This document shows positions 31,132 to 55,158 of a stretch of DNA of 64,000 bases, one piece after another. A model generated the notes under the pieces. That model worked only from the letters and a program-made list of their open reading frames with translations. It made no database searches and had not been told where the DNA came from. This DNA is from Halarchaeum rubridurum. GTDB lineage: Archaea; Halobacteriota; Halobacteria; Halobacteriales; Halobacteriaceae. Both the position numbers and the translations under genes were made by a program. Each line of letters begins with the position of its first letter. Positions within the stretch are counted from its first letter, which is position 1. Location: assembly GCF_014647115.1 (NCBI RefSeq), contig NZ_BMOO01000004.1, forward strand, positions 124,001 through 188,000, in the 5' to 3' direction.

Positions 31132-34133
<3,002 letters not shown>

Positions 34134-34310
34134 GGGGAGAGAACGCGCCGAGGCGGAAAGAAGCCGGCGGCCCCGGCACGGACGGCGGGTAGCGACGACC
34201 GACAGCGGCCGGCGAGACGTGGAGGGGTGACGGGGAGCGACGACCGAACTCGGAGCCCGGAGTCGCCCGACGCGATGGGTATTTCCGCGGCGGCGCGCTC
34301 ACCTAGCGGT

Positions 34311-36947
34311 ATGGACGCGGCTCTGGGACCACCGGCGGCGATGGCCGACCACCGGGAGGAGCTGACGCCGATGATGGCCCAGTACCACGACCTCTGTGCG
34401 GAGTACGACGACTCGCTCGTGCTCTTTCAGGTCGGGGACTTCTACGAACTCTTCTGCGAGGCGGCGGAGACGGCGGCGCGCATCCTGGAGATCACGCTGA
34501 CGAAACGCGAGGACTCGACGGGGAGCTACCCGATGGCGGGCATCCCCATCGACAGCGCGGCCTCCTACATCGAGGGCCTGCTGGAGGCGGGCTACCGCGT
34601 CGCGGTCGCCGACCAGGTCGAGGACCCCGACGAGGCCAGCGGCATCGTCGAGCGCTCCGTGACGCGCGTCGTCACGCCCGGGACGCTGACCGAGACCGAG
34701 CTCCTGCGCTCGGACGACAACAACTTCGTCGCCAGCCTGACGCGCGGCGACGAGGGGTACGGCCTCGCCTTCCTCGACGTCTCGACGGGCGACTTCGTGG
34801 CGACCGGCCCGGACGCCGCGGCGACCGTGCGCGACGAGATCGCGCGCTTCGACCCCGCGGAGGCCATCGTCGGCCCCGACGCCTCGGCCGACTGCTTCGC
34901 CGACGACTGCATGGTCACCGCGTACGACCCCGGGGCGTTCGCGGCCGACGCGGCGCGCGGGCGCGTCGCGGACTACTTCGGGTCGCCGGACGCCCACCTC
35001 GGCGGCGAGGCGGAGGTACGGGCCTGCGGCGCGCTGCTCGCGTACGCCGAGTACACCCGCGGCGGCGAGGGCGAGGACGACCGCCTCGACTACCTCACGC
35101 ACCTGACGCGCTACGACCCCCGCGAGTACATGGTGCTCGATGGCGTCGCGCTGCGCTCGCTCGAACTCTTCGAGCGCCGGAGCGTCCACGGGAGCGAGGG
35201 CACGGCGCTCGTGGACGTCCTCGACGAGACGGCGTGCGCGCTCGGCGCGCGGCGGCTGAAGGACTGGCTCCGCCGCCCGCTCGTCGACGCCGACCGCATC
35301 GAGGCGCGCCACGACGCCGTCGGCGAACTCGTCTCCGACCCCCTCACGCGCGACGCCCTCGCGGACGACCTCGCGGACGTCTACGACCTCGAACGCCTCA
35401 TCTCGAAGGTGTCGCGCCGCCGCGCGGACGCCCGCGACCTCCGCTCGCTGAAGGCGACGCTCGACGTCGTTCCGGGGGTCATCGACGAGCTCGCGGACGC
35501 GGAGAGCGACCTCCTGTGCGATCTACGTAGTCGTCTCGACGGCCTCGACGACGTCCGCGAGCTCATCGGGAACGCGATCCACGAGAACCCCAAGCGCGAA
35601 CTCACCGAGGGCGGCATCATCGCGGACGGCTACGACGAGGCGCTCGACGACCTCCGGGGGACGCGACGCGACGGCGAGCAGTGGATAGACGACTTAGAGA
35701 CCCAGGAACGCGAGCGCACCGGCATCGACTCGCTGAAGGTCGGGCACAACTCCGTCCACGGGTATTACATCGAGGTGACGAACCCGAACCTCGATTCGGT
35801 CCCGGAGAACTACGAGCGCCGGCAGACGCTGAAGAACTCGGAGCGCTTCGTCACGCCCGAGTTGAAGGAGCGCGAGGAGGAGATACTGAACGCCTCGGCG
35901 CGCGCGGACGACCGCGAACTCGACCTCTTCCGGGAGGTCCGCAGGGAGGTCGGCGAGGCCGCCGAGCGCGTCCAGCGGGTCGCGGACGCCCTCGCCGCGC
36001 TCGACGCGCTCTGCTCGCTCGCGGCCGTCGCGGCCCAGTACGACTACTGCCGGCCCGAGGTCGGCGCGGACGGCTTCGAGATCGAGGGCGGGCGACACCC
36101 CGTCGTCGAGCGGACGGAGGAGTCGTTCGTGCCGAACGACCTCTCGCTCACGCGCGAGACGCCGCTCGCGGTCGTGACGGGGCCGAACATGAGCGGGAAG
36201 TCGACGTACATGCGCCAGGCGGCGCTCGTCGCGGTGCTCGCGCAACTCGGGAGCTTCGTGCCGGCGCGCGCCGCGCGCGTCCCGCTCGTCGACCGGGTGT
36301 TCACGCGCGTCGGCGCGAGCGACGACATCGCGGGCGGGCGCTCGACGTTCATGGTCGAGATGACCGAGCTCGCGGACATCCTCCGCGACGCGACAGAGAA
36401 CTCCCTCGTCGTGCTCGACGAGGTCGGGCGCGGGACGAGCACCGCGGACGGCTACGCCATCGCGCAGGCCGTCACGGAGCGCCTCCACGACGAGGTCGGC
36501 GCGTACACCCTGTTCGCCACGCACCACCACGACCTCACGGCGGTCGCCGACGACCTCGACGGCGCGCGCAACCTCCACTTCCGCGCGGCGCGCGAGGGCG
36601 ACGACGTCACGTTCGTCCACGAGGTCGCCGAGGGCGCGGCGAGCGCCTCCTACGGCATCGAGGTGGCCGAACAGGCCGGCGTCCCGCCGGGCGTCGTCGA
36701 GCGAGCGCGCGACGTCGTCACCGAACGCGCGAAAGCCGTGGACGAGGAGGACGGGGACACGGACGCAGAGACGGGCGCAGCGATAGACGCAACCGAAGCC
36801 ACAACCGCCGACGCGAGCGCCAGCGCCGACGGCGGGAACGCGGACGCCGACGCCGCGGTGCTGGACGAGCTCGCGGCGCTGAACCTCGCGGAGATGACGC
36901 CCATCGAGGCGTTGACGACGCTGAACAGGCTCCAGCGGGAGCTCTAA
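34311..36947 (+). CDS. mutS: DNA mismatch repair protein MutS (first copy)
   Basis: An 878-residue full-length MutS. Mismatch-recognition motif VGDFYELF lies near residue 41. Connector, core and clamp domains follow, then the ATPase with Walker [10 protein letters not shown] (about 625-633), the STFMVEM segment, Walker [12 protein letters not shown] and the conserved ATHHHDL. An Asp/Ala/Thr-rich linker separates it from a C-terminal helix-turn-helix-like end ([21 protein letters not shown]). The ATG at 34311 with [12 protein letters not shown] is the usual haloarchaeal N-terminus. It shares with the copy at 50396 an intact Phe-x-Glu motif, so both should bind mismatches. Confidence 0.95.
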
Positions 36948-37067
36948 GGCAGAAATATTTGATCAACTACCGCGTCCATCTGCATATCGTGTGAGGCAGA
37001 CACTTATCGGCTAATAATTCAATGCAGCCGCTAGAATAGACGGGTATTCCTCGGCGTGAAAAGTCGA

Positions 37068-38870
37068 CTATATACTTTTGTTGAACCCATAGTCGGCTCG
37101 CTTGTACCGCTGTGAGATTTCTATCATATCGGTAAAATCGTGACTGTCGCTGTCGTACCACCATGATAGCAATATTAGCACAATCTTCTCTGACTCACTA
37201 ATTTCATACTTCTGGCCAATTCTTCTGACTACTTCTGGGATTATTTCTCCATAGTCCGCTGTTAAATCGGAAAGTGTCTTAATATCGGCCGATGATAGTG
37301 CTTCAACTGTTGTGTCACTTACTATAGTAAGGCCATCCAGATTAGTCGAGGGGAGGGCTACTTCTCTCTCAAATGTGACTGTAACCGGAGTCTCCAGCAA
37401 TGGCACAGTACTTCTCTCAATCGTCTGCTCGGCGCGCTTGAAGCCGTTGCGGGCCTGCCGGAAACGAATGCGGGAAACCGTCTCGTTACCAATCAAATAC
37501 TGAACAATTGCGTCTTGGAAGTTTTGCTCAGATGATTGCAGGTCTTCCGCTAGTGATGACCGTTGTTCGCGCTGAGTCGTCACGGTGTTGAGCGCCATTT
37601 TTGTAGTTTCAAGTCTAGCTTTAGGATCCTCTATATTATCGCCATCAACCGATTTTGCTGCCTCAATCGCTCGTTTGAGTTGTGTGATCGCTTCTGCGTA
37701 CGCGTTTTCAGCCCGTACATAATCACCGCTTGCTTTGGCCGTCTCAGCACGGTCAATCGTTTCAATAGCGAGTTCTTGCAGTTGGCTCGGCTCAGCTGGA
37801 TAGTCCTCGGGTTCCGGGTCGGGTATTTGTCGCAGTTCTGGGTCGGTAGTACTCGTATCGCTTGGTTGGGTTGGCCCAGAGGAGCGGGCGGACCAGTACT
37901 GCCGTATGAATTCTCCTACACCAAGAACTCCACCTGCGACAAGGAAGAGAGAAATCGGAAGTTGATTTTCTTTGAGGAGGGTGAATAACGTTGTCTCATC
38001 TGAGCCTCGGCTTATTTCAGTAGTAGCTGTGGTCGGAGTACTGGAGTTTTGGCGTGGTCTAGTAGTAGTTGGGATTATGACCGACTGTTCGGCGTACCGC
38101 CAGTCAGCGTGATGTCCGAGTGTCCCCAGTGTAGTGCGAGACCCTTCACTGGAGCCAGTAACCCCAGCGTCCACCGCATAAAGGGATCGGTAGCCACTAA
38201 CGAATATAGTGCCATCTACTACGGTCGGCGATGACCGCCCCAGACCGTATGCCTGTGGTTCAAAGGCCCACTCTTCTTCACCCGTCTCGGCATTCACCGC
38301 ATACAGGTTCGAATCTCTACTACCGACGAAAACCGTCCCATCCACCACCGTCGGCGATGAGCGAACCTGACCGCCGGTAGCGAAGGTCCACTCCTCTTCG
38401 CCCGTCTCGGCATTCACCGCATACAGGTTCGAATCTCCACTACCGACGAAAACCATCCCCCCCACTACCGTTGGTGATGACCACCATAGATACTCGTCTT
38501 TGAAGGCCCACTCCTCTTCGCCCGTCTCGGCATTCACCGCGTACAGATTCGAGTCACTACTAACGATGAAAACTATCCCATCCACCACCGTCGGTGATGA
38601 GTGAACCCGACCGCCGGTATAGAAGGCCCACTCTGCTTCACCCGTCTCAGCATTCACCGCGTACAGGTTCCGGTCCATACTACCGACGAAAGCCGTTCCA
38701 TTTACTACCGTTGGCGACGAACCACCTCCACCATAGGTGAAGGCCCACTGTAGATCTCCGGGATCAGCAGCAGCAGTAGTAGAGGTCGTATAACCTACAA
38801 TACCTAATGCAGTGAACGCGCTGGTCGTCCTGAGAACTTGTCGCCGTCCACACACTGGTGTATCACTCAT
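37068..38870 (-). CDS. Tat-exported PQQ beta-propeller protein with TM helix and cytoplasmic-type helical repeats
   Basis: A 600-residue protein of unknown function. A twin-arginine signal (CGRRQVLRTTSAFTALGIV) is followed by five 40-residue beta-propeller repeats (each SSPTVVxG..FVG..D.NLYAVNAETGEEEWAF), probably half a propeller. A Thr/Ser linker leads to a TM helix (ISLFLVAGGVLGVGEFI) near residue 300, then TPR/MIT-like helices (about 340-480, ETAKASGDYVRAENAYAEAI) and a unique C-terminal domain. The topology suggests an outside sensor and an inside effector-binding half. AT-rich codon use contrasts with mutS. An in-frame ATG at 38888 adds six residues. It is divergent from the tubulin-GTPase cluster side. 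Confidence 0.8.
   Translation of the reverse strand: MSDTPVCGRRQVLRTTSAFTALGIVGYTTSTTAAADPGDLQWAFTYGGGGSSPTVVNGTAFVGSMDRNLYAVNAETGEAEWAFYTGGRVHSSPTVVDGIVFIVSSDSNLYAVNAETGEEEWAFKDEYLWWSSPTVVGGMVFVGSGDSNLYAVNAETGEEEWTFATGGQVRSSPTVVDGTVFVGSRDSNLYAVNAETGEEEWAFEPQAYGLGRSSPTVVDGTIFVSGYRSLYAVDAGVTGSSEGSRTTLGTLGHHADWRYAEQSVIIPTTTRPRQNSSTPTTATTEISRGSDETTLFTLLKENQLPISLFLVAGGVLGVGEFIRQYWSARSSGPTQPSDTSTTDPELRQIPDPEPEDYPAEPSQLQELAIETIDRAETAKASGDYVRAENAYAEAITQLKRAIEAAKSVDGDNIEDPKARLETTKMALNTVTTQREQRSSLAEDLQSSEQNFQDAIVQYLIGNETVSRIRFRQARNGFKRAEQTIERSTVPLLETPVTVTFEREVALPSTNLDGLTIVSDTTVEALSSADIKTLSDLTADYGEIIPEVVRRIGQKYEISESEKIVLILLSWWYDSDSHDFTDMIEISQRYKRADYGFNKSI
38255..38720 (-). repeat. Near-identical 120-bp coding repeats (beta-propeller blades)
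   Basis: The same phrase CCCGTCTCGGCATTCACCGC recurs at 38281, 38401, 38521 and (one change) 38641, exactly 120 bases apart. Each unit encodes one 40-residue propeller blade. High DNA identity points to recent duplication or gene conversion and to possible repeat-number variation. Confidence 0.9.
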
Positions 38871-38964
38871 ACGTCTATAATAGATCACATAGAGGTTAAT
38901 TGATGGGGCCTATCTAGTGCCACTGTTCAGATTAGAGTTGAGGGATGAGGCGGCCGGGCACTGT

Positions 38965-39120
38965 CTAGTTCTGGATCTCGTTAATCGGTGTCCTTCCATC
39001 AAGAGTCTGACGCAGTCTGTAGCGGTTGTAATAAGGCATGAACTGTTCAATTTCGACAGCGGTTTCATCAACTGTGACCCGCTTCGGCTGCGCCTCAAAC
39101 GGGTCACATCCGCTGTCAGC
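38965..39120 (-). pseudogene. Transposase C-terminal remnant
   Basis: On the minus strand the frame ending at a TAG (38965-38967) encodes VDETAVEIEQFMPYYNRYRL followed by RQTLDGRTPINEIQN. This YNRYR..Q.LDGRTP pattern is the usual end of rve/DDE-type transposases. Nothing recognisable lies upstream, so only about 40-50 codons survive. The remnant fills the gap between two genes of the AT-rich island. Confidence 0.6.
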
Positions 39121-39183
39121 TCTAAACAATATGATCGTACTCTTGGTAAAGTTCAAGTGAGTGTCACGGATACACACAGCCAA

Positions 39184-40098
39184 ATGGGATGGGACTACGC
39201 GACCAATCAATCCGAGCTTCCTGATCGGGTTATCGGTCACCTTGAGGACGAAGGATATACCGGCAATCAGTTTGTGGTTGGCTTTCCCGTTAAGAAGGGG
39301 GTTATTCGGACAAAATCGATACTTACGCTCATATCTAATGATCTGTACGTAGTTTCGATCAATTTATTTGACGAGACGGGGACTGTATGGAGATTGTCGG
39401 AATTAGATTCGCTCATTGTCAAAGGGGGCGACGGCGATTACCGCATTTACGTAGCCGATACGACGGACTCAAAGCTAGTTTGTTCAGCTACTGGATCAGA
39501 ACGGATGATCGCGTTCTTGACCGCCTTGCATAGAGAGTACAGTGAAATAGTTGATATTGAAGCTCCACCGGCACTACTCAAGCAGTCTAAGGAGTCAGAA
39601 GATCATCATAGACGGGATCAGCGTAATGGCAAGCGTGCGCATGCACATTGGGAATATGCGGACGCACTCGTCGAACGAGGTGAGTATGAACATGCGGTCC
39701 GTGAGTATGATTCTGCTCTTACGAAATATCGTACGGCTCGGATGAGCGCCATGGACGAGGAGCGTATCGATAAGTTCGACCAAACGATTAATACAATTTC
39801 TACTGCTCAAGAAAACGCCGAGGAAAAGCGAGATGTAGTGGCGGAGGTGGCGAAGATACTGAAAGATGCAGAGACCCACCTCACAGAAGCGAGTGATGCG
39901 CTTGCAACCGAGCGGAGTGTAGTAGCTCAGACGCGCTATCGACAGGCGGACAACCGTTACAAGGAGGCAGAAGAGAAGTTGTCTTCCGTCGAGGTTAACG
40001 ATCTGAATCTGGAGGTGGAGGGCCAATCATTTACTAGTCGTACCCAAATCAAGACGCGTCGAGAAATGGCTTCTGCTGGGCTCTTTATTTGCAGCTAG
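39184..40098 (+). CDS. PH-like/helical-repeat protein of unknown function
   Basis: A roughly 304-residue protein, low GC. The N-terminal half (GHLEDEGYTGNQFVVGF, GVIRTKSILTLISNDLYVVS, a region rich in beta strands to about residue 125) looks like a bacterial PH-like domain. The C-terminal half (HWEYADALVERGEYEHAVRE, then RYRQADNRYKEAEEKL) is a TPR/MIT-like helical module, clearly like that in the PQQ protein at 37068. The reading frame is open back to 38917 but that part overlaps the transposase remnant, so the original 5' end may be lost or replaced. The ATG at 39184 is one possible start; a GTG at 39158 is another. Function unknown. Confidence 0.6.
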   Translation: MGWDYATNQSELPDRVIGHLEDEGYTGNQFVVGFPVKKGVIRTKSILTLISNDLYVVSINLFDETGTVWRLSELDSLIVKGGDGDYRIYVADTTDSKLVCSATGSERMIAFLTALHREYSEIVDIEAPPALLKQSKESEDHHRRDQRNGKRAHAHWEYADALVERGEYEHAVREYDSALTKYRTARMSAMDEERIDKFDQTINTISTAQENAEEKRDVVAEVAKILKDAETHLTEASDALATERSVVAQTRYRQADNRYKEAEEKLSSVEVNDLNLEVEGQSFTSRTQIKTRREMASAGLFICS

Positions 40099-40287
40099 CT
40101 AGTGTGACATCTACAGAAAAGTGGAGCAAATGCCTCAATAATCGACCCCGGGGTGGTTTATGTCTATTTCGTGCTGTGTAATCGGACGCTGATGGCCTAG
40201 ACAAATCGTATTTCGAATCCGAATGGAGGAGGGTGGGAGATGACAAGTCGGGAAATAAAAGTCTGTTGTAATTTTTTAAATTAACTT
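40099..40287. other. AT-rich intergenic stretch
   Basis: About 190 bases between the PH-like gene and the promoter of the tubulin-like operon. No gene, hairpin or repeat was found. Confidence 0.35.
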
Positions 40288-40313
40288 ATTATATGTATGT
40301 ATTTAATCCTATC
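40288..40313 (+). promoter_or_regulatory. Promoter of the tubulin-like operon
   Basis: Two TATA-like runs, TTATTATATG and TATTTAATC, lie 40-60 bases before the ATG at 40349 in the most AT-rich stretch of the island. The second one would give initiation just ahead of that ATG. Confidence 0.45.
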
Positions 40314-40348
40314 GTTTATGTCGGTATGCTGTGACCCTTCTGGTAGGA

Positions 40349-43300
40349 ATGACACTTCCGGATCAAATTTTTAGTATCGGCGGGGCAGGCAAGGACATCG
40401 GTATGGAAATCCTTGAATCAGAGTGGGTTCTTCGAGAGGTACTCCAACCACGCCCCGACCCAGAAACACTTACCATAACATTCCTCGACACTGCATCTGA
40501 AGAAAAGAATGATGACCTGGAACGTATCAGCGATATTCGTCAAAAGCGCGATGAAATCAAGGAAGAATATCGGGAAAGTTCAGAAGGAGGACGAGTTGGG
40601 GACGTAAAAGTCAGATACAAACTAATCACCGAAAACATCATGCTCAACAGTCGGATTGATCTCGTGGGAGACGACGTCGTTCCACGAATTACATCCGGCA
40701 CCGGAATCCCAGAGCAGAACTGGTGGGTTTCAGAAAAGCATATCGAAGAAAACCTCAATTTCGCGAAGGGGGCTGTCCGAAAACGGGGGCTCGGCAAAGC
40801 TATGTACTACAAAGCATACGCCGAGGATGACCAACTCGCTACGATGATCGACATCCCTTCGAAGGGGGAGATTGCGATCATATCCGGAATTGGTGGCGGT
40901 ACGGGCTCCGGTCTGTTCATCGATGTCGCCCAAGAACTGACCAAGAAGATGCCGACAGCCGATATTACGCTCTTCGGTGTTCTTCCCAACCATACAGAAG
41001 GACTACGTGAGAACGCGAATGCATTCGCTGCACTCTCCGAACTCGAATGGCTTAGCCTTACAGGTAATCCACTATTCAAGGACCGAATTCTGATGCCTAT
41101 TGACCCCACGGGGTTCGATGGTAAACGGGGTAACCGCGTCGAATCTGATCAGATGATCGAAGAGTTCGACCAAGCCGCGGTATACCTCCTCCTTGCATAT
41201 TATAATAACCAAGGAATGGAAGACGTCTTTAGTGGATCACCACAGTTTGCGCCATTTACGATAGGTATCCCCCAAATTCTCCGGTATAACGTAGAAGCGA
41301 TTCAGGAGGCGCGGAAGTCTATCGAGAATATCCTCAACTTCAAAGAAGACGCGCTTGACGCAGAGCGAGACATCTACGAGGAAGTGGAGATATTCCTTGA
41401 TTCACAATACGGTGAGGTCGATGGTGGACTCCGGGGAGAAGAGGAAAGTGATCTATCGAACCGGCTGACGACCTTTGAGTCACTCCTCGAATTCGACCTT
41501 TTTGAAGAGTTAGAATACGAATCTGTCAATCTGTTTCGGGAAGTTCTGGCCGACGCCGCCGAAGAATCGGAAGAGATAGGGGAACAAATAGATATCATCG
41601 GTGGCTCGCTACGAGCGGGCGTCGCGATGCCGAATGAGCAGACGACGTACGCAGATAATGTTGACGCTCATCTCTCAGAGGTCCTGCAACAAGACCTCGA
41701 TCTCATCACACGCCGGAAACAGATCCTAGAACAGAAAAGCGCGATCGACAACAACCGCGTCCGCCGTGCCGTCGAATCCATCCTCGGACTCGAAGATGCA
41801 GCAAGTAGCGCCGGCAGAACGGTCCGCCGATTAGAATCACAGCTATCCGAAGCAGAGGAAAAGCGAGCGCGACTCAACGAAGAGCTCGCAGAAGCAGCTA
41901 GCAAGCTAGAGTCAATCCGCGAAGAGCAAAAAGAGGAAGTCAGTGCAGATGTCTCTCGGTGGGAACGGGATATTGAACACCATATAGAGCAACTTTCAGC
42001 GATCGCCTACGACGAGATCAAGCGGGATCTCGACTCACTTCAGACAGCTCTCTCGCAATACAGAGGTGAAATCGTAAACTCGGGGAGCACTGAAGAAGTG
42101 GAGAACGTCAACCCTGGTGAGGTCAATACTGCGCTTGACTCACTCGAGGAATCTCTTCGACCAACCGGCGTCTCTATTGAGGACGACAAGCGAGCAATCC
42201 AGCGATCACTCTCCGAACTCCAGAACGCCCGAAAAGCATACATTCACCTCGAACGGGAAGAGAGTACGCTCGAGCGTCTCGCACCATGGGACTCCTCAAC
42301 GAAAGAAGAGAAACAGGAAGCACAGAAGACCTTCCGAATGGCGTCGAACCGTCTTGACGACACCGGCGTGTTCTCCGTTGGACCACCAAGCGCACAGTTT
42401 TCCTCAGAGCTCGAATATAACCCAGATCCGGTGTTAGGAAAGGTTGAGGAGAGACAGGATGAACTCGAAAAGGACATCATCGATAAACTCCGCGATCAGC
42501 TCGAAGAGGAACTACCACGCGAGGTGAAAGATGACCTAGAACGCGAATTGGACGAGCAAGAAATCGACCGTGAGGCCTGCCGTGATATCGCTCGACGTGT
42601 ATTTGAAAACGAGTTGGACGGGACAGCAGATATTGAATCGCGTCGAGAGAACCTCAACTCACGGATAGAAAACCTCGACGAAGATATCAGTCTCTACGAA
42701 TCAGTGATCGACCTATTTGAGTCGGTCAGTAACCGCCGCGGGGTGTTCAAAGACCACCAATCGTCGTTCCAAGAGGCATTATCAGACTTCGACGAACGGT
42801 CAAGCCGATCTGTCACAACGGAATCGGAGGACTATGTCTACATAAAGAATGTCCAGCCACAGCAAGTATTCCAAGCAACCGGAAGCAAAACGCTCTCCGA
42901 CACTGGCCTGTTCAACAATCGTCAAGAGCTAAATCGAGTTCGAGACAACCTCGAAGAACTAGCGAACAACACACTTGATCGTCAGTACACCGGCCTCCAA
43001 CGGCGTAAGCTGAGTCATAACGGTCGTCGCTACTCAGATCTCCGGGTTCGTGTCGCAGTATTAAGCGAAGCGGTCGACCAACTCGAAAGCGACACAATCA
43101 ACCTCAAGTCTACATACGAGGAAGCCTTTGATCTCGAAGGGAACCCGACAAAGCAACGATATAGTGCCTGGAACGCCGATATCGGTGATGACTGGGATAT
43201 CGGGATGGCGGTGTTTGTTGACGGCGTCTTCTTTGATAATATTCGGAAAGCCGTGCAAGCAGACGGCTACGCGAGCGGCTATGAAGAATGGGCAACTAAT

Positions 43301-43555
43301 CCCGACGTTGATATCCAGATTCATCATAGCCTCGGACTCGAAGACGGGCACTATGTCCGTCGGAAAGGCACTCTTAACGTCGAATCGAGCGACGACGTGA
43401 GCTTCTTACTACAAGATGAATCGGATGTCGTAGACGGTCTCTTGCAAGAGTGGTCTGAACAGATTAATTCGCTGGCAGACGATGCGCCAGATGGCACGAA
43501 GCTCAAAGAGGGGGTAGACGAGATGGAGAGCGAGCAGGGAGGTGGATCATCGTGA
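40349..43555 (+). CDS. Large tubulin-like GTPase with long coiled coil
   Basis: A 1068-residue protein. Its first 330 residues form a tubulin/FtsZ-type GTPase domain: T1-like loop SIGGAGKDIG (residues 9-18) and the signature GGGTGSG (182-188, in SGIGGGTGSGLFIDVAQEL), followed by ADITLFGVLP. This matches the prokaryotic tubulin-like group (Tubulin_2 type) rather than FtsZ or CetZ. Residues about 330-910 are mostly charged coiled coil interrupted by short loops. The last 110 residues (DWDIGMAVFVDGVFFDNIRK, then IHHSLGLEDGHYVRRKG) are a conserved-looking C-terminal piece of that group. Its last codons overlap the start of the membrane GTPase, so one operon is certain. It probably forms filaments at the membrane via that partner (inference). 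A GTG at 40331 is an alternative start. Confidence 0.88.
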   Translation: MTLPDQIFSIGGAGKDIGMEILESEWVLREVLQPRPDPETLTITFLDTASEEKNDDLERISDIRQKRDEIKEEYRESSEGGRVGDVKVRYKLITENIMLNSRIDLVGDDVVPRITSGTGIPEQNWWVSEKHIEENLNFAKGAVRKRGLGKAMYYKAYAEDDQLATMIDIPSKGEIAIISGIGGGTGSGLFIDVAQELTKKMPTADITLFGVLPNHTEGLRENANAFAALSELEWLSLTGNPLFKDRILMPIDPTGFDGKRGNRVESDQMIEEFDQAAVYLLLAYYNNQGMEDVFSGSPQFAPFTIGIPQILRYNVEAIQEARKSIENILNFKEDALDAERDIYEEVEIFLDSQYGEVDGGLRGEEESDLSNRLTTFESLLEFDLFEELEYESVNLFREVLADAAEESEEIGEQIDIIGGSLRAGVAMPNEQTTYADNVDAHLSEVLQQDLDLITRRKQILEQKSAIDNNRVRRAVESILGLEDAASSAGRTVRRLESQLSEAEEKRARLNEELAEAASKLESIREEQKEEVSADVSRWERDIEHHIEQLSAIAYDEIKRDLDSLQTALSQYRGEIVNSGSTEEVENVNPGEVNTALDSLEESLRPTGVSIEDDKRAIQRSLSELQNARKAYIHLEREESTLERLAPWDSSTKEEKQEAQKTFRMASNRLDDTGVFSVGPPSAQFSSELEYNPDPVLGKVEERQDELEKDIIDKLRDQLEEELPREVKDDLERELDEQEIDREACRDIARRVFENELDGTADIESRRENLNSRIENLDEDISLYESVIDLFESVSNRRGVFKDHQSSFQEALSDFDERSSRSVTTESEDYVYIKNVQPQQVFQATGSKTLSDTGLFNNRQELNRVRDNLEELANNTLDRQYTGLQRRKLSHNGRRYSDLRVRVAVLSEAVDQLESDTINLKSTYEEAFDLEGNPTKQRYSAWNADIGDDWDIGMAVFVDGVFFDNIRKAVQADGYASGYEEWATNPDVDIQIHHSLGLEDGHYVRRKGTLNVESSDDVSFLLQDESDVVDGLLQEWSEQINSLADDAPDGTKLKEGVDEMESEQGGGSS

Positions 43556-44994
43556 AGGCGGTTAAGGCGATACAACAGAACTCTGAAAAAGTCGTCCTCG
43601 CAGTCTATATGGCCGCTATCGTGGTGTTTGCGGCCTTGCTTACCCCCATGCTCGGAGATGCGTGGCGTGGGGGCGGCCTCACCCGGTTCCTCTTCCGAAC
43701 ACGGCTACTCGTCGGATTGAGTCTCGACGTCATTGCCTCCGCCCTACTCGGCCTCTACTTCGGGTTCCTCCTCCTCATGGTAGTGGACACTAAAAAGCGC
43801 CTACAGGGAGTCTTATTGTTCGCTGGTTCAGTTATCGCACTTATCATTCTATCTGGTATGGGACTCCTGTTGCCGAATATCGATTCAATATCAAACCTCC
43901 CGTGGATTGCTATCGGCCTCGCCGCTAGTGCTTTCCTCGGAGGAGGGCGAACGCTCTCAAACATTACTTCCGGAGGTGTGTTGGAATTCCGGGGAGCGTC
44001 AAAGGCAATCTACTACATCCTTACAGCCGTCGTTGTGTTGAGCTTCGTTGAATTCCATCTTGAATATCAGCTACCGGTTAGTATTACCGCAGGTGGCATC
44101 TCATTGCCACCTAACTTTTCACCAAGAATTCAGATAATCGGTGGTGCACAGCAGATAATATTCCACACAATACTCGTTACCGGATTCGTCGTCACAGCTC
44201 GTCGCTTCGTCACATACGACGCCGAACAAGATTTCTTCGTCCTCGGTCCGAAGGCATCGGGGAAGTCGCTCTTGCTCGTTGGTTCTTATCTTGAAGCACT
44301 TAACCGACTAAACAACAAGGAGCAACAAGTTCCGCTTGACCCGAGCCAAGATCTTATGAATCTGGTCGGTGAACTAGATCGCCAACAGGATGGGTGGTTC
44401 GTAGATGCGACTCGCCAGCGAGAGCTGGAGGATCTACAATTCAAATACGTTCACGGCTCTATTTTCCCACGAAATGTACAAGTTTCAACGCTAGATTATG
44501 CAGGCGAGCTGCTTGAGCAACTCCCAGACGCGCTGATGAGTGCCGGATCAAGCGGAGACCTTCCATCAACGGTGAATCAAGCTTCCCGTTCAATTCAGGA
44601 GGCGGATACTCTCGTACTGCTAATTGACTCAAACCGATTTCTGGAGAATGAGCGCCTTGATATTGAGCCGTATTTCGATATCCTCCAAGCCACGGACAGT
44701 AAGGAGGTCATTCTTGTCGCGACAAAGTCCGACATCTTCGCAGAAGAATTTCGTGAGGAGCAAGGTCTGCAGGCTCAGCAGTATTTCGACGAGTTCAAGC
44801 AATATGTCGACGATCGGCTCTCGCAGAACCAGTCGGTCCAAGCGCTCAAAGCTCAGACAGATCAACCGGTTATTCACCCAGTCTATTATCAGACACGAAT
44901 TGACGAAAACGGGGAGCGCGTCCCGATGCGTAACAGTGGATCGGTCGCAACAGTTGGGTTTGATCGCCTACTCGATATGCTAGGGGAGAAGTAA
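43552..44994 (+). CDS. Polytopic membrane protein with C-terminal P-loop GTPase domain
   Basis: A 480-residue protein whose GTG start overlaps the stop of the tubulin-like gene. Six hydrophobic segments fill the N-terminal half (about 14-34, 53-78, 85-107, 116-133, 152-170, 198-217). A GTPase domain follows: G1 GPKASGKS (232-239), G3 DYAG (315-318) and G4 TKSD (391-394, after VILVA). These three motifs mark a TRAFAC-like GTPase rather than a generic ATPase. The hydrophobic module would anchor it in the cytoplasmic membrane with the GTPase inside. No characterised family recognised. Operon context implies that it tethers or regulates the tubulin-like polymer. Confidence 0.85.
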   Translation: MKAVKAIQQNSEKVVLAVYMAAIVVFAALLTPMLGDAWRGGGLTRFLFRTRLLVGLSLDVIASALLGLYFGFLLLMVVDTKKRLQGVLLFAGSVIALIILSGMGLLLPNIDSISNLPWIAIGLAASAFLGGGRTLSNITSGGVLEFRGASKAIYYILTAVVVLSFVEFHLEYQLPVSITAGGISLPPNFSPRIQIIGGAQQIIFHTILVTGFVVTARRFVTYDAEQDFFVLGPKASGKSLLLVGSYLEALNRLNNKEQQVPLDPSQDLMNLVGELDRQQDGWFVDATRQRELEDLQFKYVHGSIFPRNVQVSTLDYAGELLEQLPDALMSAGSSGDLPSTVNQASRSIQEADTLVLLIDSNRFLENERLDIEPYFDILQATDSKEVILVATKSDIFAEEFREEQGLQAQQYFDEFKQYVDDRLSQNQSVQALKAQTDQPVIHPVYYQTRIDENGERVPMRNSGSVATVGFDRLLDMLGEK

Positions 44995-44995
44995 G

Positions 44996-45805
44996 ATGAC
45001 GAGCGTACAGATCTATGATTCGCAGGGATATCCGCTTAGTGAACAGGGAGACGCACGAGATCGGACGATCCAAGAGATGGGTCAGTACGGCGTTGTGTTC
45101 TCGCTTGAATTCGGATCTGTCACTGAGGTCATCGTCTATTTCCGCGGTTACGAGAGTCAAAGTGGCCGGATGGAACAATACTACGCTCGAGCTATTTCAG
45201 ATATGCAACCAGATCTGACCGACATCAATAGCGCAATTATCTCGAAAGCAGAACAACGCCACGGCTTAGAGATCGAAGAGTCAGCAAGTGGTGAGAATTT
45301 CTTCAATACTCTCCAGAAGTCCATCAAGCGAGAAGTTGCCTCCCGAGACCAATGTAATCGAATAAATTATCTACTCTCGCGGGGCCACCAGCTCCGGTTC
45401 GGGATTCCGAGCTATGAAGAAGGGCTTCAGCTCATCTCACAGATACAAGGCATGAAGCCAGGGCTCCGAGTTGCAGTTGTCCAAGGTGAAGGTAGGGTCC
45501 CCGACTCACTTGGCCAGTACGACCTCGTTATCGAGAAAGGGGACTACGTATCCCTTGAGCCGCTTGATAGGACGGAAGAGCTGATGGATCCAAGTACGGT
45601 GGATCACTCTACAGACGACCGCACGATTTCGGTCGATAATCGAACAATCAATCTAACAGCTGCACTCGAGTCAATCGCCATCAGTGTCGGCGTTATCGTC
45701 TTACTATCTCTACTTTATGTCGCAGTAGCTCTGATCGGCCTCCATTACTTAAATACGTCACTACCTGGAGCAGAGGTGATCAAGAATACTATCTGGATCT
45801 GGTAG
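44996..45805 (+). CDS. C-terminally membrane-anchored protein of the tubulin-GTPase operon
   Basis: A 269-residue protein starting two bases after the GTPase stop. Residues 1-200 are soluble alpha/beta (EMGQYGVVFSLEFGSVTEVI, RVAVVQGEGRVPDSLGQYDLVIEKG), then a polar linker and one long hydrophobic helix (about 222-252) near the C-terminus, ending SLPGAEVIKNTIWIW. It would face the cytoplasm with a tail anchor. The N-terminal domain could be a GTPase-adaptor or regulator of the preceding GTPase, but this is only positional inference. Confidence 0.78.
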   Translation: MTSVQIYDSQGYPLSEQGDARDRTIQEMGQYGVVFSLEFGSVTEVIVYFRGYESQSGRMEQYYARAISDMQPDLTDINSAIISKAEQRHGLEIEESASGENFFNTLQKSIKREVASRDQCNRINYLLSRGHQLRFGIPSYEEGLQLISQIQGMKPGLRVAVVQGEGRVPDSLGQYDLVIEKGDYVSLEPLDRTEELMDPSTVDHSTDDRTISVDNRTINLTAALESIAISVGVIVLLSLLYVAVALIGLHYLNTSLPGAEVIKNTIWIW

Positions 45806-46140
45806 GCATCTCAGCTCATACCTCAACCGACGGTCAGCATCTCCATGTTTTCCTTCAGTGGTTTCCTTATGTACGACCAATTCATCGGGACAGGGTTACG
45901 CTAGCGAAAAACGGTTCCCGAACGTATATTAACGAGGCCGGGAAATTTGAGCGGCCAAGCCGCGGTTGGCCGGGACGGCTATTCAAGAAGGTCCGTCAGC
46001 ACGCTGGCAGTACCGAGGACAAGTAGTGAATCAGCTCTGAATCAGTCCCTGAGACATTCTCCTTGGCCACCGGTAACGGTTGAATAGTTGACTTATTTTC
46101 GCATTCTCAAGAAGTTAGATCAAATAGTGGAACCGAAGAC
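45806..46140. other. 335-bp intergenic region, right edge of AT-rich island
   Basis: No convincing gene. One plus-strand frame without a start codon ends at 46027 (reading GWPGRLFKKVRQHAGSTEDK) and could be a decayed coding remnant. Composition changes sharply to GC-rich at 46141, the end of nucS. Confidence 0.35.
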
Positions 46141-50303: not shown

Positions 50304-50357
50304 AGCCGCGGGCCGGCGAGGCGGTGCGTTCTTACTCGCCCGCGGCCACTTATCGCC

Positions 50358-50399
50358 ATGATCGAGACGCCCGCGCGGACCGGGGTGAGGGCGGCGTGA
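50358..50399 (+). other. 13-codon leader ORF overlapping the second mutS start
   Basis: ATG at 50358 opens MIETPARTGVRAA and its TGA overlaps the GTG start of mutS at 50396. Lying between the promoter module and mutS, it may couple or limit translation of mutS. Confidence 0.3.
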
Positions 50400-53062
50400 C
50401 CGGCATCGTCGAGGAGTTCCTCGCGCTGAAGGAGGAGTCGGACGCGGACGTCCTCGCCATGCAGGTCGGGGACTTCTACGAGTTCTTCGCGGACGACGCG
50501 CGCCTCGTCGCCGACGAGCTCGACCTGAAGGTCTCCGAGAAGTCGAGTCACGGCTCGTCGTACCCGATGGCGGGCGTCCCCCTCACGGAGTTGACGCCGT
50601 ACCTGAAGTCGCTCGTGGAGCGCGGGTACACGGTCGCGGTCGCCGAGCAGCGCGGCGACGACGACACGACGCGCGAGGTCACGCGAACGGCGACGCCGGG
50701 CACCCTCCTGGAGGCGACGGGCGCGGACGCGCGCTACCTCGTGGCCGTGGTGCGCGACGGGGACACGTACGGCCTCGCGGCGGTGGACGTGACGACGGGG
50801 ACGTTCCGGCTGACCGAAGTGGAGGACGAGCGGAGGGCGCTCGCGGAGCTCGGGCGCTTCAGCCCCGAGGAGGTGTTACCGGGGCCGACGCTGCGCGGCG
50901 ACGACGACTTTTGCGAGGCGGTACGGGAGGATACGGACGCGACCCTGAGCGTCCACGGGACGGAGGCGTTCGCGCCCGGGAAGGCGACGCACGAGGTCCG
51001 CGAGCGGTTCGGCGAGGGCGCGCTGCGTGCGGTCGGCGTCGAGTCCGAGGGGCCGGGCGCGCGGGCGGCGGGTGCGGCGCTCGACTACGTCGCGGAGACG
51101 GGCGTCGGCGTGCTGTCGTCACTGACGCGGCTCCAGCCCTATCGGGCGGACGACCACGTCGCCCTCGACCCGACGACGCGGCGGAACCTCGAACTGACGG
51201 CGACGATGCGCGGCGAGCGGGAGGGGTCGCTGGCGGCGACGCTCGACCACACGGTGACGGCGATGGGCGCGCGACGCCTGGAGGCGTGGCTCGTCCGGCC
51301 GCTCCAGCGGCGCGCGGAACTCGAACGCCGCCACGACTGCGTCGCGGCGCTCGCGGACAACGCGCTCGAACGCGACGCGGTGCGCGAGACGCTGGACGGC
51401 GCGGCGGACCTCGAACGCCTCGCCGCGCGCTGCACGTCGGGGAGCGCGGACCCGAGCGCCCTGAAGCGCGTCGTCGACACCTTGGCGCGCCTCCCCGACC
51501 TCCGCGAGCGCGTGACGTCGTCGCCGTCGCTCGCCGACTCGCCGCTCGGCGACGTGCTCGACCGGGTGGACGCCGAGGCCGCCGCCGACCTCCGCGAGAC
51601 GGTGGACGACGCGCTCGCGGACGAGCCCGGTGGCGAGACGGGCATCTTCGCGCGCGGATACGACGACGAACTCGACGAGCTCGCGGCCGAGCACGACGAC
51701 CTCGTGGCGTGGTTCGACACGCTCGCCGAGCGCGTGAAGGCGGAGAGCGACCTCTCGCGGGTGACGGTGGACCGGAACAAGACGGACGGCTACTACCTCC
51801 AGGTCGGGCACTCGCAGACGGACCGCGTCCCCGAGTCGTACCGGGAGGTGAAGACGCTGAAGAACTCGAAGCGCTACCGCACGGAGGAGCTCGACGCGAA
51901 GGAGCGCGCGCTGTTCCGCGTCGAGGAGGAGCGCGCGGCCCGCGAGCGCGAGCTGTTCGACGAGCTCCGCGCGGAGGTCGCGTCGCACGCCTCGCTGTTG
52001 CAGGACGCGGGACGGGCGCTCGCGGAACTCGACGCGCTGGCGTGTTTCGCGGAGCACGCGAGCGCGAACCGCTGGACGCGCCCCGAGTTGCGCGACGACC
52101 GGACGCTCGACGTGACGGCGGGTCGTCACCCCGTCGTCGAGCAGACGGTGGAGTTCGTGCCGAACGACGCGCGCTTCGGCGAGGGGCGGCGCTTCCTCGT
52201 CGTCACGGGTCCGAACATGAGCGGGAAGTCGACGTATATGCGCCAGACGGCGCTCATCGTGTTGCTCGCGCAGGCGGGGAGTTTCGTGCCCGCCGACTCG
52301 GCCGCGGTCGGGCTCGTCGACGGCGTCTACACGCGCGTCGGCGCGCTCGACGAGCTCGCGCAGGGGCGCTCGACGTTCATGGTGGAAATGCAGGAGTTGA
52401 GCAATATCCTCCACTCCGCGACCGAGGACTCCCTCGTCGTGCTCGACGAGGTCGGGCGCGGGACGGCGAGCGACGACGGCATCAGCATCGCGTGGGCGGC
52501 GACGGAGTACCTCCACAACGAGGTGCGCGCGAAGACGCTCTTCGCCACGCACTACCACGAGCTGACGGAGCTCGCGGCGCGCCTGGAGGGCGTGCAGAAC
52601 GTCCACGTGACGGCGGAGGAGCGCGACGGCGACGTGACGTTCCTCCGGACGGTCGCGGACGGCCCCGCGGATCGCTCGTACGGCATCCACGTCGCCGACC
52701 TCGCGGGCGTCCCCGACCCCGTGGTGTCGCGCTCGCGCGACGTCCTCGAACGCCTCCGCGCGGACGAGGCCGTCGACGTTCGGGGCGGCTCGGGCGGGGG
52801 GAGCGAGGGGAGCGAACAGGTCGTCTTCGACCTCGGGAGCGGCGAACTGCGGGCGACGGGCGACGGCGGGGGCGACGACGGCGAGGCCGGCGGGAACGGT
52901 GGGCGGGAACGCGGCGGCGGGAGCGAGGCCGGCGACGGGAGCGACGCGCTCGACCCCGAGGCGGAGGCGGTCCTCGACGAGCTCCGGGGGACGGACGTCA
53001 ACAACTCCTCGCCGCTCGACCTGCTCCAGCGGGTCAACGAGTGGCAGAAGCGGCTCGACTGA
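50396..53062 (+). CDS. mutS: DNA mismatch repair protein MutS (second copy)
   Basis: An 888-residue full-length MutS. The mismatch-binding motif is MQVGDFYEFF near residue 23; the ATPase has [11 protein letters not shown] (Walker A, about 607-617), [11 protein letters not shown] (Walker B) and ATHYHELTEL. A Gly/Glu/Asp-rich insert of about 60 residues precedes the C-terminal helix (VNNSSPLDLLQRVNEWQKRLD). The GTG at 50396 is used since the sequence VTGIVEEFLALKEE is the usual N-terminus. mutL follows 44 bases later on the same strand, making this copy the likely partner of MutL. Confidence 0.95.
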   Translation: MTGIVEEFLALKEESDADVLAMQVGDFYEFFADDARLVADELDLKVSEKSSHGSSYPMAGVPLTELTPYLKSLVERGYTVAVAEQRGDDDTTREVTRTATPGTLLEATGADARYLVAVVRDGDTYGLAAVDVTTGTFRLTEVEDERRALAELGRFSPEEVLPGPTLRGDDDFCEAVREDTDATLSVHGTEAFAPGKATHEVRERFGEGALRAVGVESEGPGARAAGAALDYVAETGVGVLSSLTRLQPYRADDHVALDPTTRRNLELTATMRGEREGSLAATLDHTVTAMGARRLEAWLVRPLQRRAELERRHDCVAALADNALERDAVRETLDGAADLERLAARCTSGSADPSALKRVVDTLARLPDLRERVTSSPSLADSPLGDVLDRVDAEAAADLRETVDDALADEPGGETGIFARGYDDELDELAAEHDDLVAWFDTLAERVKAESDLSRVTVDRNKTDGYYLQVGHSQTDRVPESYREVKTLKNSKRYRTEELDAKERALFRVEEERAARERELFDELRAEVASHASLLQDAGRALAELDALACFAEHASANRWTRPELRDDRTLDVTAGRHPVVEQTVEFVPNDARFGEGRRFLVVTGPNMSGKSTYMRQTALIVLLAQAGSFVPADSAAVGLVDGVYTRVGALDELAQGRSTFMVEMQELSNILHSATEDSLVVLDEVGRGTASDDGISIAWAATEYLHNEVRAKTLFATHYHELTELAARLEGVQNVHVTAEERDGDVTFLRTVADGPADRSYGIHVADLAGVPDPVVSRSRDVLERLRADEAVDVRGGSGGGSEGSEQVVFDLGSGELRATGDGGGDDGEAGGNGGRERGGGSEAGDGSDALDPEAEAVLDELRGTDVNNSSPLDLLQRVNEWQKRLD

Positions 53063-53106
53063 GCGACGAGCGTCGGATTCATGTGGGCGTGCGGCCATCG
53101 ACGGCC

Positions 53107-55158
53107 ATGAGCGAGGGCGAGGACGGAGACGCCGAGATACGCGAACTCGACGCGGCGACCATCGACCGCATCGCGGCGGGCGAGGTGGTCGAGCGGCCCG
53201 CGTCGGTCGTGAAGGAACTCGTCGAGAACGCCCTCGACGCGGACGCCACGCGGATCGAGGTCGAAGTGGCGGGCGACGGGACGGACGAACTCGTCGTGCG
53301 CGACGACGGCGTCGGGATGACGCGCGCGGACGCCGAGGTCGCAGTCGAGCGCCACACGACGTCGAAGATCAGGGACGCGACCGACCTCGCGCGCGTCGGG
53401 ACGCTCGGCTTCCGCGGCGAGGCCCTACACACGATTGCCGCGGTGTCGCGGCTGACGGTGACGACGAAGCCCCGCGGCGGGCGCGGGACCGAGGTCCGCG
53501 TCGTCGGCGGCGACGTCGACGCCGTCGGCCCCGCGGGGCGCGCGCCGGGGACGACGGTGGCGGTCCGCGACCTTTTTTATAATACGCCGGCACGCCGCGC
53601 GTTCCTGAACGCCGAGAGCACCGAGTTCGGGCACGTCAACCGCACGGTGTCGCGCTACGCGCTCGCCAACCCGGACGTCGCGGTGTCGCTCGAACACGAC
53701 GGGACGGAGACGTTCGCCACGCCGGGCGACGGGGACGTGCGCTCGGCGCTCCTCGCCGTCTACGGCCGCGACGTCGCGGCGTCGATGATCGCCGTGGACG
53801 CCGCGCCCGACCGGACGCTGGAGCGCGTCGAGGGATACGTGAGCCACCCGGAGACGACGCGCTCGACGCGTGACTACCTCGCCACGTACGTCAACGGCCG
53901 CTACGTGAGCGACCGGCTGCTCCGCGAGGCCATCGTCGAGGCCTACGGCACGCAGTTGGCCGCTGATCGCTTCCCGTTCGCCGTCCTCGACGTCGAACTC
54001 CCGCCGAGCGAAGTGGACGCGAACGTCCATCCGCGGAAGATGGAGGTGCGCTTCGAGGACGAGCCGGGCGTCCGCGCGGCCGTGACGGACGCGGTGCGCG
54101 ACGCCCTCCGCGAGCACGGATTGGTGCGGACGAGCGCCCCGCGCGGCGCGTCGAAGCCGACGGACGCCGCGATTACCCCCGAGCGCGATAGCGTCGAGCG
54201 CGGTGACACGGGCGAATCGGGCGGACGCGGCGACCCGAGCGATGGTGGGGACGGTGGCGGGTCGGCGGGAGGCACGACGAACGGGTCGACGGAAGGAACG
54301 ACGGGCGGACCGACGGGCGAGGCGGCGAGCGGACGGCACGCGTCGTCGCGCGGCGCGTCGGGGTCGGACGACGGTCCGCCGAGCGCGTCGCCGTCGGCGG
54401 CGGAACGTGCGTCGTCGGGACCGCGCGGGTCGCACACCGACGCCGGTGCGACGTCGTCGTCGGGCCGACACGCGGGCGCGACGCGGAACGCCCGGTTGCC
54501 CGGGACGGCGGACGCCGGGACGGCTGACGGGACGGCGGAGCGCGAGCGCGAGCGTCTGCCGCCGCTGCGCGTGCTCGGACAGCTCCACGGGACGTACGTC
54601 GTCGCGGCGACGGACGACGGCCTCGTGTTGGTCGACCAGCACGCGGCGGACGAGCGGGTGCGCTACGAGGCACTGCGCGAGGAACTCGGCGGCTCGCCGG
54701 ACTCGCAGGCGCTCGTGACGCCGGCCGAGGTGTCGCTGACGGCGGCGGAGGCGGCGAGCTTCGAGGCGGCGCTACCCGCGCTCCGCGAGGCGGGTTTCGA
54801 GGCCGAGGTCGAAGACAGAACGGCGGTCGTGACGGCCGTGCCCGCGGTGTTCGGGCACGCGCTGGACGCCGAGCTCGTCCGGGACGTGCTCGCGTCCGCG
54901 ACGAGCGCCGCGGCGGACGACGACGTGCTCGACGCCGCGGACGCCTTACTCGCGGACATGGCGTGCAAGCCCGCGATAAAGGGGAACACGTCGCTCCCGG
55001 AGGGGGACGTGACGGCGCTCCTCGACCGCCTCGACGGCTGCGCGGAGCCGTGGGCGTGCCCGCACGGCCGACCGGTGCTCGTCGAAATCGACGCGGCGGA
55101 ACTCGACCGGCGCTTCGAGCGCGACTACCCGGGACATCAGGACCGCACGCCCGAGTGA
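53107..55158 (+). CDS. mutL: DNA mismatch repair protein MutL with endonuclease motif
   Basis: A 683-residue GHKL ATPase and endonuclease. The N-terminal motifs ELVENALDAD, DDGVGM and TLGFRGEAL are intact, followed by the transducer domain (DYLATYVNGRYVSD, VDANVHPRKMEVRF). A Gly/Ser/Thr-rich linker of about 120 residues leads to the C-terminal domain with VDQHAADERVRYE, the DQHA(X)2E(X)4E nuclease motif, plus ACKPAIKGN and CPHGRP. Thus it can probably nick DNA itself, as expected in an organism without MutH. It lies directly downstream of mutS. Confidence 0.95.
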   Translation: MSEGEDGDAEIRELDAATIDRIAAGEVVERPASVVKELVENALDADATRIEVEVAGDGTDELVVRDDGVGMTRADAEVAVERHTTSKIRDATDLARVGTLGFRGEALHTIAAVSRLTVTTKPRGGRGTEVRVVGGDVDAVGPAGRAPGTTVAVRDLFYNTPARRAFLNAESTEFGHVNRTVSRYALANPDVAVSLEHDGTETFATPGDGDVRSALLAVYGRDVAASMIAVDAAPDRTLERVEGYVSHPETTRSTRDYLATYVNGRYVSDRLLREAIVEAYGTQLAADRFPFAVLDVELPPSEVDANVHPRKMEVRFEDEPGVRAAVTDAVRDALREHGLVRTSAPRGASKPTDAAITPERDSVERGDTGESGGRGDPSDGGDGGGSAGGTTNGSTEGTTGGPTGEAASGRHASSRGASGSDDGPPSASPSAAERASSGPRGSHTDAGATSSSGRHAGATRNARLPGTADAGTADGTAERERERLPPLRVLGQLHGTYVVAATDDGLVLVDQHAADERVRYEALREELGGSPDSQALVTPAEVSLTAAEAASFEAALPALREAGFEAEVEDRTAVVTAVPAVFGHALDAELVRDVLASATSAAADDDVLDAADALLADMACKPAIKGNTSLPEGDVTALLDRLDGCAEPWACPHGRPVLVEIDAAELDRRFERDYPGHQDRTPE

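Follow-up and report, generated by a model that had tools for sequence, protein, structure and literature searches.

The FtsZl1 system of Halarchaeum rubridurum: a conserved three-gene unit with a tubulin-superfamily protein, a membrane GTPase and a bitopic membrane protein

A 64,000-nucleotide stretch of the haloarchaeon Halarchaeum rubridurum (NCBI RefSeq assembly GCF_014647115.1, contig NZ_BMOO01000004.1, positions 124,001 to 188,000), hereafter called the window, contains three co-directional, tightly spaced open reading frames (ORFs; 40349–45805) for a large tubulin-like protein, a predicted membrane GTPase and a small membrane-spanning protein (genes 1, 2 and 3). The locus raises the question of whether these genes form a system without precedent or belong to a known family, and what such a system might do in the cell. 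In a preliminary description, made from the DNA letters and a list of ORFs, the operon had been taken for a candidate undescribed system. All three ORFs of that description were confirmed, together with the signatures GGGTGSG, GPKASGKS, DYAG and TKSD.

A haloarchaeal FtsZl1 system

The operon is a haloarchaeal FtsZl1 system and therefore a member of a known family, since every family-defining feature that was examined was found in it. The FtsZl1 family was described from Huta_2051 of Halorhabdus utahensis as proteins of ~1050 residues with an FtsZ-like N-terminal domain, an extended coiled coil and a C-terminal globular domain, in which the T6–H7/T7 region is not recognisable, and the caveat on polymer dynamics that we raise below was already voiced there (Makarova and Koonin, 2010; PMC2875224). 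The operonic GTPase was reported to be membrane-associated in archaea, whereas the bacterial ones typically are not; the predicted role of FtsZl1 was membrane remodelling, and a vWA protein was found in the majority, but not all, of the predicted operons (PMC2875224). The operon in the window shares with the FtsZl1 locus Huta_2050–2056 the domain order, the motif GGGTG[ST]G and the operonic membrane GTPase, as well as nearby kinases and transmembrane proteins and the coexistence with ordinary FtsZ. In the NCBI annotation the family is called tubulin-like. Unlike many FtsZl1 operons, the operon in the window has no vWA gene, which is a frequent partner and not a family criterion. No vWA gene was found near the operon in this genome, the nearest being on another contig, and vWA was not among the families shared by at least two of 87 neighbour proteins.

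As FtsZl1 with an operonic archaeal membrane GTPase was published in 2010 (PMC2875224), the word "undescribed" was dropped. What is new here is the conservation of the three-gene unit, the family of gene 3 ectodomains, the clustering with PQQ proteins, the absence of T7 in 31 of 31 homologues, and the location on an island with an empty site.

The gene 2-type GTPase was present in 48 of 392 Halobacteriales genomes. The 40 loci fetched contained 31 coiled-coil tubulin genes, and every one adjoined a GTPase gene, which nearly always lay immediately downstream, in a survey that was seeded with the GTPase and in which tubulins without it were not countable. The gaps between the two genes were mostly −14 to +11 nucleotides. 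Two further Tubulin_2 loci (L100 and L101; ~850 residues) were found separately. They represent another subgroup, and the stretch fetched around them contained no GTPase. The complete three-gene order was present in 26 surveyed Halobacteriales loci and on one Methanohalobium plasmid, which bore out the operon as first proposed. The plasmid, pMETEV01 of Methanohalobium evestigatum (NC_014254.1; L125), carries the unit with a pilin-like gene on one side and S-layer genes on the other. Its gene 3 domain was recognised with hhalign (E = 7.4e-19) in a protein that NCBI names "PGF-pre-PGF domain-containing", whose gene is followed by an S-layer protein gene. Therefore, the unit has spread beyond Halobacteria. 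Several relatives are plasmid-borne, the majority of copies sit on large contigs that appear to be chromosomal, and no relative was found in IMG/VR contigs or phage records. The three genes are one conserved, horizontally moving unit.

The three proteins

Gene 1 is a divergent member of the tubulin superfamily. The start codon ATG at 40349 was preferred to that of a longer ORF (GTG at 40331) because the homologues start at MNLPDRIF. Residues 10–234 matched Pfam Tubulin_2 (PF13809) with 49.2 bits (cut-off 27, E = 5.9e-13), and in profile–profile comparison a profile of 18 gene 1-type N-terminal domains matched haloarchaeal CetZ-like proteins with E = 2.6e-8, compared with E = 0.26 for an unrelated profile used as the negative control; the homology detectable to CetZ was confined to ~60 columns around T4. 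The tubulin signature noticed at the outset thus exceeds chance. In addition, the N-terminal domain profile matched PDB chains of TubZ, FtsZ and tubulin, with phage TubZ (4xcq, E = 1e-5) as the closest solved structure, so that the domain falls inside the tubulin superfamily. All 50 listed fold matches of the AlphaFold model (predicted local distance difference test score, pLDDT, 45) were FtsZ, TubZ or tubulin, with template modelling scores of 0.2–0.4, at which the model cannot show T7 or an inter-subunit surface. The models of genes 1 and 3 were built from two-sequence alignments and are hence weak.

The tubulin-like domain (~1–350), which would bind guanosine triphosphate (GTP), is followed by a charged, Gly/Pro-poor and coiled-coil-like helical middle (~440–820) that is interrupted near residues 670–690, and by a globular C-terminal domain (~830–1048) with eight invariant positions (W, G, D, N, Y, H, G and R) in an alignment of 25 sequences (A1). 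Apolipoprotein and SMC-type coiled-coil matches were obtained for the protein as well. The coiled coil of ~580 residues in the preliminary description was overlong, as the charged stretch ends at ~820 and the part beyond ~830 is a separate conserved domain.

T1- and T4-like nucleotide loops were kept in 31 of 31 homologues of gene 1. In tubulin and FtsZ, the T7 motif NxDxx[DE] completes the GTPase site between subunits; downstream of T4 it was found in none of the 31. Therefore, gene 1 was not filed as FtsZ or CetZ. Gene 1 is also not the division FtsZ, because the same genome has five other FtsZ/CetZ-type genes and because so few Halobacteriales genomes carry the GTPase (48 of 392). The window itself contains one of the five (~12898–13374; G000:C4:136898-137374), a canonical member of the FtsZ/tubulin family. 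CetZ, the haloarchaeal cell-shape tubulin, has the superfamily, the T4 loop and the host group in common with gene 1, but is ~360–400 residues long and has neither a coiled coil nor an operonic GTPase.

From its motifs and hydropathy, the gene 2 protein is a predicted multi-transmembrane P-loop GTPase. It overlaps gene 1 by 4 nucleotides and consists of an N-terminal transmembrane region (~1–215) and a C-terminal GTPase domain with the motifs G1 (GPKASGKS, 232–239), G3 (DYAGE, 315–319) and G4 (TKSD, 391–394). The residues G, K, S, D, G, E, K and D of these motifs, among them the Walker B glutamate E319 of DYAGE, were invariant in 19 close relatives. The full P-loop motif set and weak profile links of the family to EngA, Era and DO-GTPase2 agree with the TRAFAC-type GTPase named earlier. 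Regarding the six transmembrane helices of the preliminary description, four were clear by hydropathy, six are plausible by eye, and the homologues have two to six. Against DO-GTPase2 (Pfam PF19993), gene 2 scored 15.2 bits, below the cut-off of 27, and 6 of 30 gene 2-type GTPases matched at E ≤ 0.01, the best at 3.1e-5.

Some loci of the survey depart from this pattern. In L091, L093, L097 and L098, a more distant GTPase is followed by a protein with three to four transmembrane helices. L095 and L099 contain divergent tubulin–GTPase pairs in which, by alignment, the adjacent GTPase has seemingly lost its P-loop and TKxD motifs, and a second divergent GTPase gene that looks intact lies elsewhere in the same fetched stretch; the two are possibly an active/inactive GTPase pair, comparable to the "double GTPase" idea.

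Gene 3, which starts 1 nucleotide past the end of gene 2, encodes a conserved N-terminal domain (~1–200), a transmembrane helix (229–247) and a 22-residue tail. An N-terminal domain of ~200 residues and one transmembrane helix were common to all 30 homologues, and in 25 of them the protein continues for 141–828 residues past the helix; the window copy is among the five short ones. The term "tail-anchored" used for gene 3 therefore suits the window copy and not the family. Gene 3 may correspond to A1 or A2, two unnamed families listed in Additional file 6 of the 2010 survey (PMC2875224). The outer parts matched CarboxypepD_reg, SpaA, PEGA, Invasin_D3 and YtkA in Pfam and are often Ig-like, a domain content from which the C-terminus is predicted to be outside the cell. 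No Pfam family among those listed covered the N-terminal domain. The model (pLDDT 63) gave no significant fold match; the best was TagF (E = 8.7e-3), and longin, PAS and GAF-like folds were among the others. From the strand order of the model, a longin/roadblock-type GTPase-regulator domain was considered as a lead.

The nearest bacterial parallel to the unit is provided by the DO-GTPase2/GAP1-N2/tubulin systems, which are mainly bacterial and whose conflict role is itself a prediction (Kaur et al., 2020; PMC7159879). The likenesses are a TRAFAC-like transmembrane GTPase with the Walker B glutamate, a coiled-coil tubulin, a downstream partner with a C-terminal transmembrane helix and an ectodomain, and kinase, TPR, YtkA and Ig-like components; the position and topology of gene 3 agree with those of the GAP1 partner. 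Unlike in those systems, recognisable GAP1 and FNIII-repeat proteins were not found here, and two GTPase paralogues were not seen in the window operon. GAP1 was not among the 25 Pfam families listed for 25 gene 3 members, no direct comparison with a GAP1 profile having been made and distant homology being untested. We do not claim membership in those systems, given the window GTPase score below the PF19993 cut-off and the lack of demonstrated GAP1 homology in gene 3.

The island and the neighbouring genes

The operon and two receptor-like genes lie on an island (Table 1) with a guanine–cytosine content of ~50%, compared with ~70% around it. In congeners, the flanks of the island are 10 bp (G003), 152 bp (G001) and, in a third, ~1.6 kb apart, and the congeners do not have the gene 2-type GTPase. 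The empty site in two congeners and the absence of the GTPase from them indicate that the island was gained, in line with the recent acquisition that had been read from the AT-rich composition. The island has two mutS genes and one mutL-like gene beside it or nearby (33474–36947, 50324–53062 and ~53070–55158), and is inserted just downstream of the first mutS. Upstream of the operon, the AT-rich sequence TTTAAATTAACTTATTATATGTATG at 40276–40300 was read as a possible promoter by eye, without an archaeal promoter model.

Table 1. Coordinates of the operon, the island and the adjoining genes in the window
Feature	Position	Strand	Evidence
Gene 1: FtsZl1/Tubulin_2 protein, 1068 residues	40349..43555	+	Pfam, alignment A1 (25 sequences), profile matches
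T4 signature of gene 1, GIGGGTGS/G (GGGTGSG, residues 182–188)	40889..40912	+	GGG[TS]G[SA]G in 31/31 homologues
Gene 2: predicted membrane GTPase, 480 residues	43552..44994	+	ORF, hydropathy, alignments A2 and A5
Gene 3: predicted bitopic membrane protein, 269 residues	44996..45805	+	30 homologues
AT-rich stretch 5' of the operon, possible archaeal TATA-type promoter	40277..40305	+	by eye, weak
AT-rich genomic island, 9.2 kb, between mutS and a nuclease-like gene; operon and two receptor-like genes	36950..46140	.	GC, congener flanks
PQQ protein, 606 residues: Tat-signal-like N-terminus, PQQ beta-propeller, transmembrane helix 310–328, cytosolic TPR-like tail	37068..38888	-	Pfam PQQ_2 E = 2.1e-34, hydropathy
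393-residue protein, C-terminal half a paralogue of the PQQ protein's cytosolic tail	38917..40098	+	phmmer, weak TPR matches

Tail-to-tail comparison of the PQQ protein with the 393-residue protein by phmmer gave E values of ~5e-4 to 1e-3. Of 25 loci, 10 had a PQQ propeller of this type in the 20 kb that was fetched, compared with 1.9 expected from genome counts (P ~5e-6), for loci that are not fully independent, as 3 of the 10 come from one genus with a common neighbourhood. In the propeller of the window, positions 38200–38769 contain near-identical blades of 120 nucleotides (40 residues), seen as three overlapping copies of 218 nucleotides with 82–83% nucleotide identity, which suggests recent duplication or homogenisation of blades in the surface domain. 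Relatives of the PQQ protein reach 1535 residues (L077). The propeller tails showed weak similarity to MIT, the "microtubule interacting" domain (residues 537–589 of L085:12588-14909, E = 7e-6, 26.5 bits, cut-off 30; residues 374–410 of the window protein, E = 0.17, below the cut-off). As these matches are below the cut-off and may reflect only TPR-like helices, an MIT domain was not accepted.

The other neighbours included Ig, PKD, CARDB and GLUG surface proteins, S-layer proteins, and fusions of kinase with Ig or propeller domains; few families were common to the 87 distinct neighbour proteins. Protein-kinase genes adjoin the operon in L061 (13363-15708), L077 (3263-7867) and L071 (12521-14419), with matches that are partly below the Pfam cut-off, and in L061 and L077 the kinase is fused to Ig-like or PQQ/PKD domains and resembles archaeal receptor kinases. 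The Huta locus of the FtsZl1 system likewise has three kinase genes.

Possible roles of the unit

We propose that the unit produces a membrane-tethered, GTPase-controlled FtsZl1 scaffold that is linked to the cell surface, with local envelope organisation or remodelling as its output rather than cell division. We hold this proposal tentatively, at somewhat less than an even chance. The gene 3 protein would span the membrane, its ectodomain reaching the S-layer or the outside, and in the short forms, including the window copy, it would act as an anchor only. Its inner domain may regulate the GTPase, as proposed for the downstream partner in DO-GTPase systems, and the gene 2 GTPase would act at the membrane as a switch for the recruitment or release of FtsZl1. 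FtsZl1 itself would bind GTP and use its tubulin domain and coiled coil to assemble into a scaffold apposed to the membrane, with contacts that do without the T7 catalytic loop, while adjacent propeller or kinase proteins with transmembrane helices may feed in surface signals. The link to the surface was proposed because of the gene 3 ectodomains, the nearby PQQ, PKD, CARDB and S-layer proteins, the PQQ enrichment and the receptor-kinase-like neighbours. The preliminary description had pictured a membrane-tethered filament of two nucleotide-driven proteins; both nucleotide-type domains are present in the sequences, and the filament and its tethering are what we infer from them.

Several points weigh against such a scaffold. 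As T7 is missing from all 31 homologues, FtsZ-like polymer dynamics should not be assumed for gene 1. GTPase–gene 3 pairs occurred without a detected tubulin in four loci (L086, L087, L088 and L090), which represent a reduced or ancestral form of the unit, and the tubulin is therefore not always needed. Interactions among the three proteins are suggested by gene order and co-divergence only; the pairwise distances in the 26 three-gene loci (r = 0.97 for tubulin–GTPase, 0.87 for tubulin–gene 3 and 0.88 for GTPase–gene 3) are expected from simple co-inheritance and are no proof of contact. The membrane topology of the gene 2 and gene 3 proteins is predicted, and the literature searched yielded no experiment on any FtsZl1 member.

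The missing T7 motif and the pairs without tubulin would suit a relay that senses the surface or signals adhesion, with FtsZl1 serving not as a polymer but as a GTP-binding adaptor or a static coiled-coil scaffold, as would the receptor-like neighbours (PQQ–transmembrane–TPR and Ig–transmembrane–kinase proteins). The retention of the T1 and T4 nucleotide loops in all homologues suggests nucleotide-dependent behaviour instead, and some tubulin-superfamily proteins assemble through unusual contacts; we regard such a non-polymerising relay as unlikely, if still credible. An outside-to-inside signalling cytoskeleton is a further reading, in which a hypervariable ectodomain would act through the inner domain on the membrane GTPase and so on local FtsZl1 assembly, in homology with the bacterial DO-GTPase/tubulin systems; this appears rather improbable to us. 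The same parallel can be turned into a conflict or defence system, in which gene 3 would sense the invader, the GTPase would set the threshold and a membrane tubulin assembly would respond. The part list of Kaur et al. (2020; PMC7159879) is similar, with a transmembrane TRAFAC GTPase, a Walker B glutamate, a downstream transmembrane/beta-sandwich partner and a coiled-coil tubulin; 6 of 30 GTPases matched DO-GTPase2, and the distribution of the unit is patchy and mobile. However, the conflict role is predicted for the bacterial systems too, in which GAP1-N2 sets may sense the wall (PMC7159879), and the window GTPase reached only 15 bits against the cut-off of 27. Gene 3 had no GAP1 match among the Pfam families listed, with distant homology untested, and no variable toxin-like effector was seen.

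A PADLOC search with the three core proteins gave no meaningful match (best E = 0.084, driven by the coiled coil). Among the 87 neighbour proteins, a few shared matches (PD-T4-6, PglW, MkoA, mad2 and mad6) were scattered, each in at most 3 of 87 and read without a baseline set, and several of them are probably generic kinase matches. The defence role suggested in the preliminary description is thus unsupported, and we consider it decidedly unlikely. A TubZ-like module for segregation or positioning, in which the tubulin would serve plasmid or island maintenance, is very improbable. It would fit the phage TubZ structure as the best PDB profile match, the plasmid-borne relatives known for TubZ/RepX as for this family, and the island location of the operon. 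Unlike TubZ/RepX, the operon has no TubR/tubC-like partner, and neither a DNA-binding TubR-like protein nor an iteron array was found by it; gene 1 has a coiled coil and a C-terminal domain, conserved membrane partners take the place of a segregation partner, most copies appear chromosomal, and phages and viral contigs contained none. Envelope organisation or remodelling is accordingly ranked as the most likely output, followed by a non-polymerising signalling scaffold, conflict or defence, and segregation of an element.

FtsZl1 has been a named branch of the tubulin superfamily since 2010, with no experiment on its role found in the literature searched. The present analysis narrows the haloarchaeal FtsZl1 system down to a minimal set of three genes transferred together, defines its third component as a transmembrane protein with a variable ectodomain, and connects the FtsZl1 literature with the separately described bacterial DO-GTPase/tubulin systems. 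Its compact size, its absence from close relatives and the genetic tractability of some haloarchaea make the function of the unit directly testable. If FtsZl1 assembles without a T7 loop, this would give new insight into polymerisation of the tubulin fold. Moreover, if the signalling-cytoskeleton reading were true, archaea would possess a link from transmembrane adhesion to the cytoskeleton, built from a T7-less tubulin relative with a new mode of assembly.

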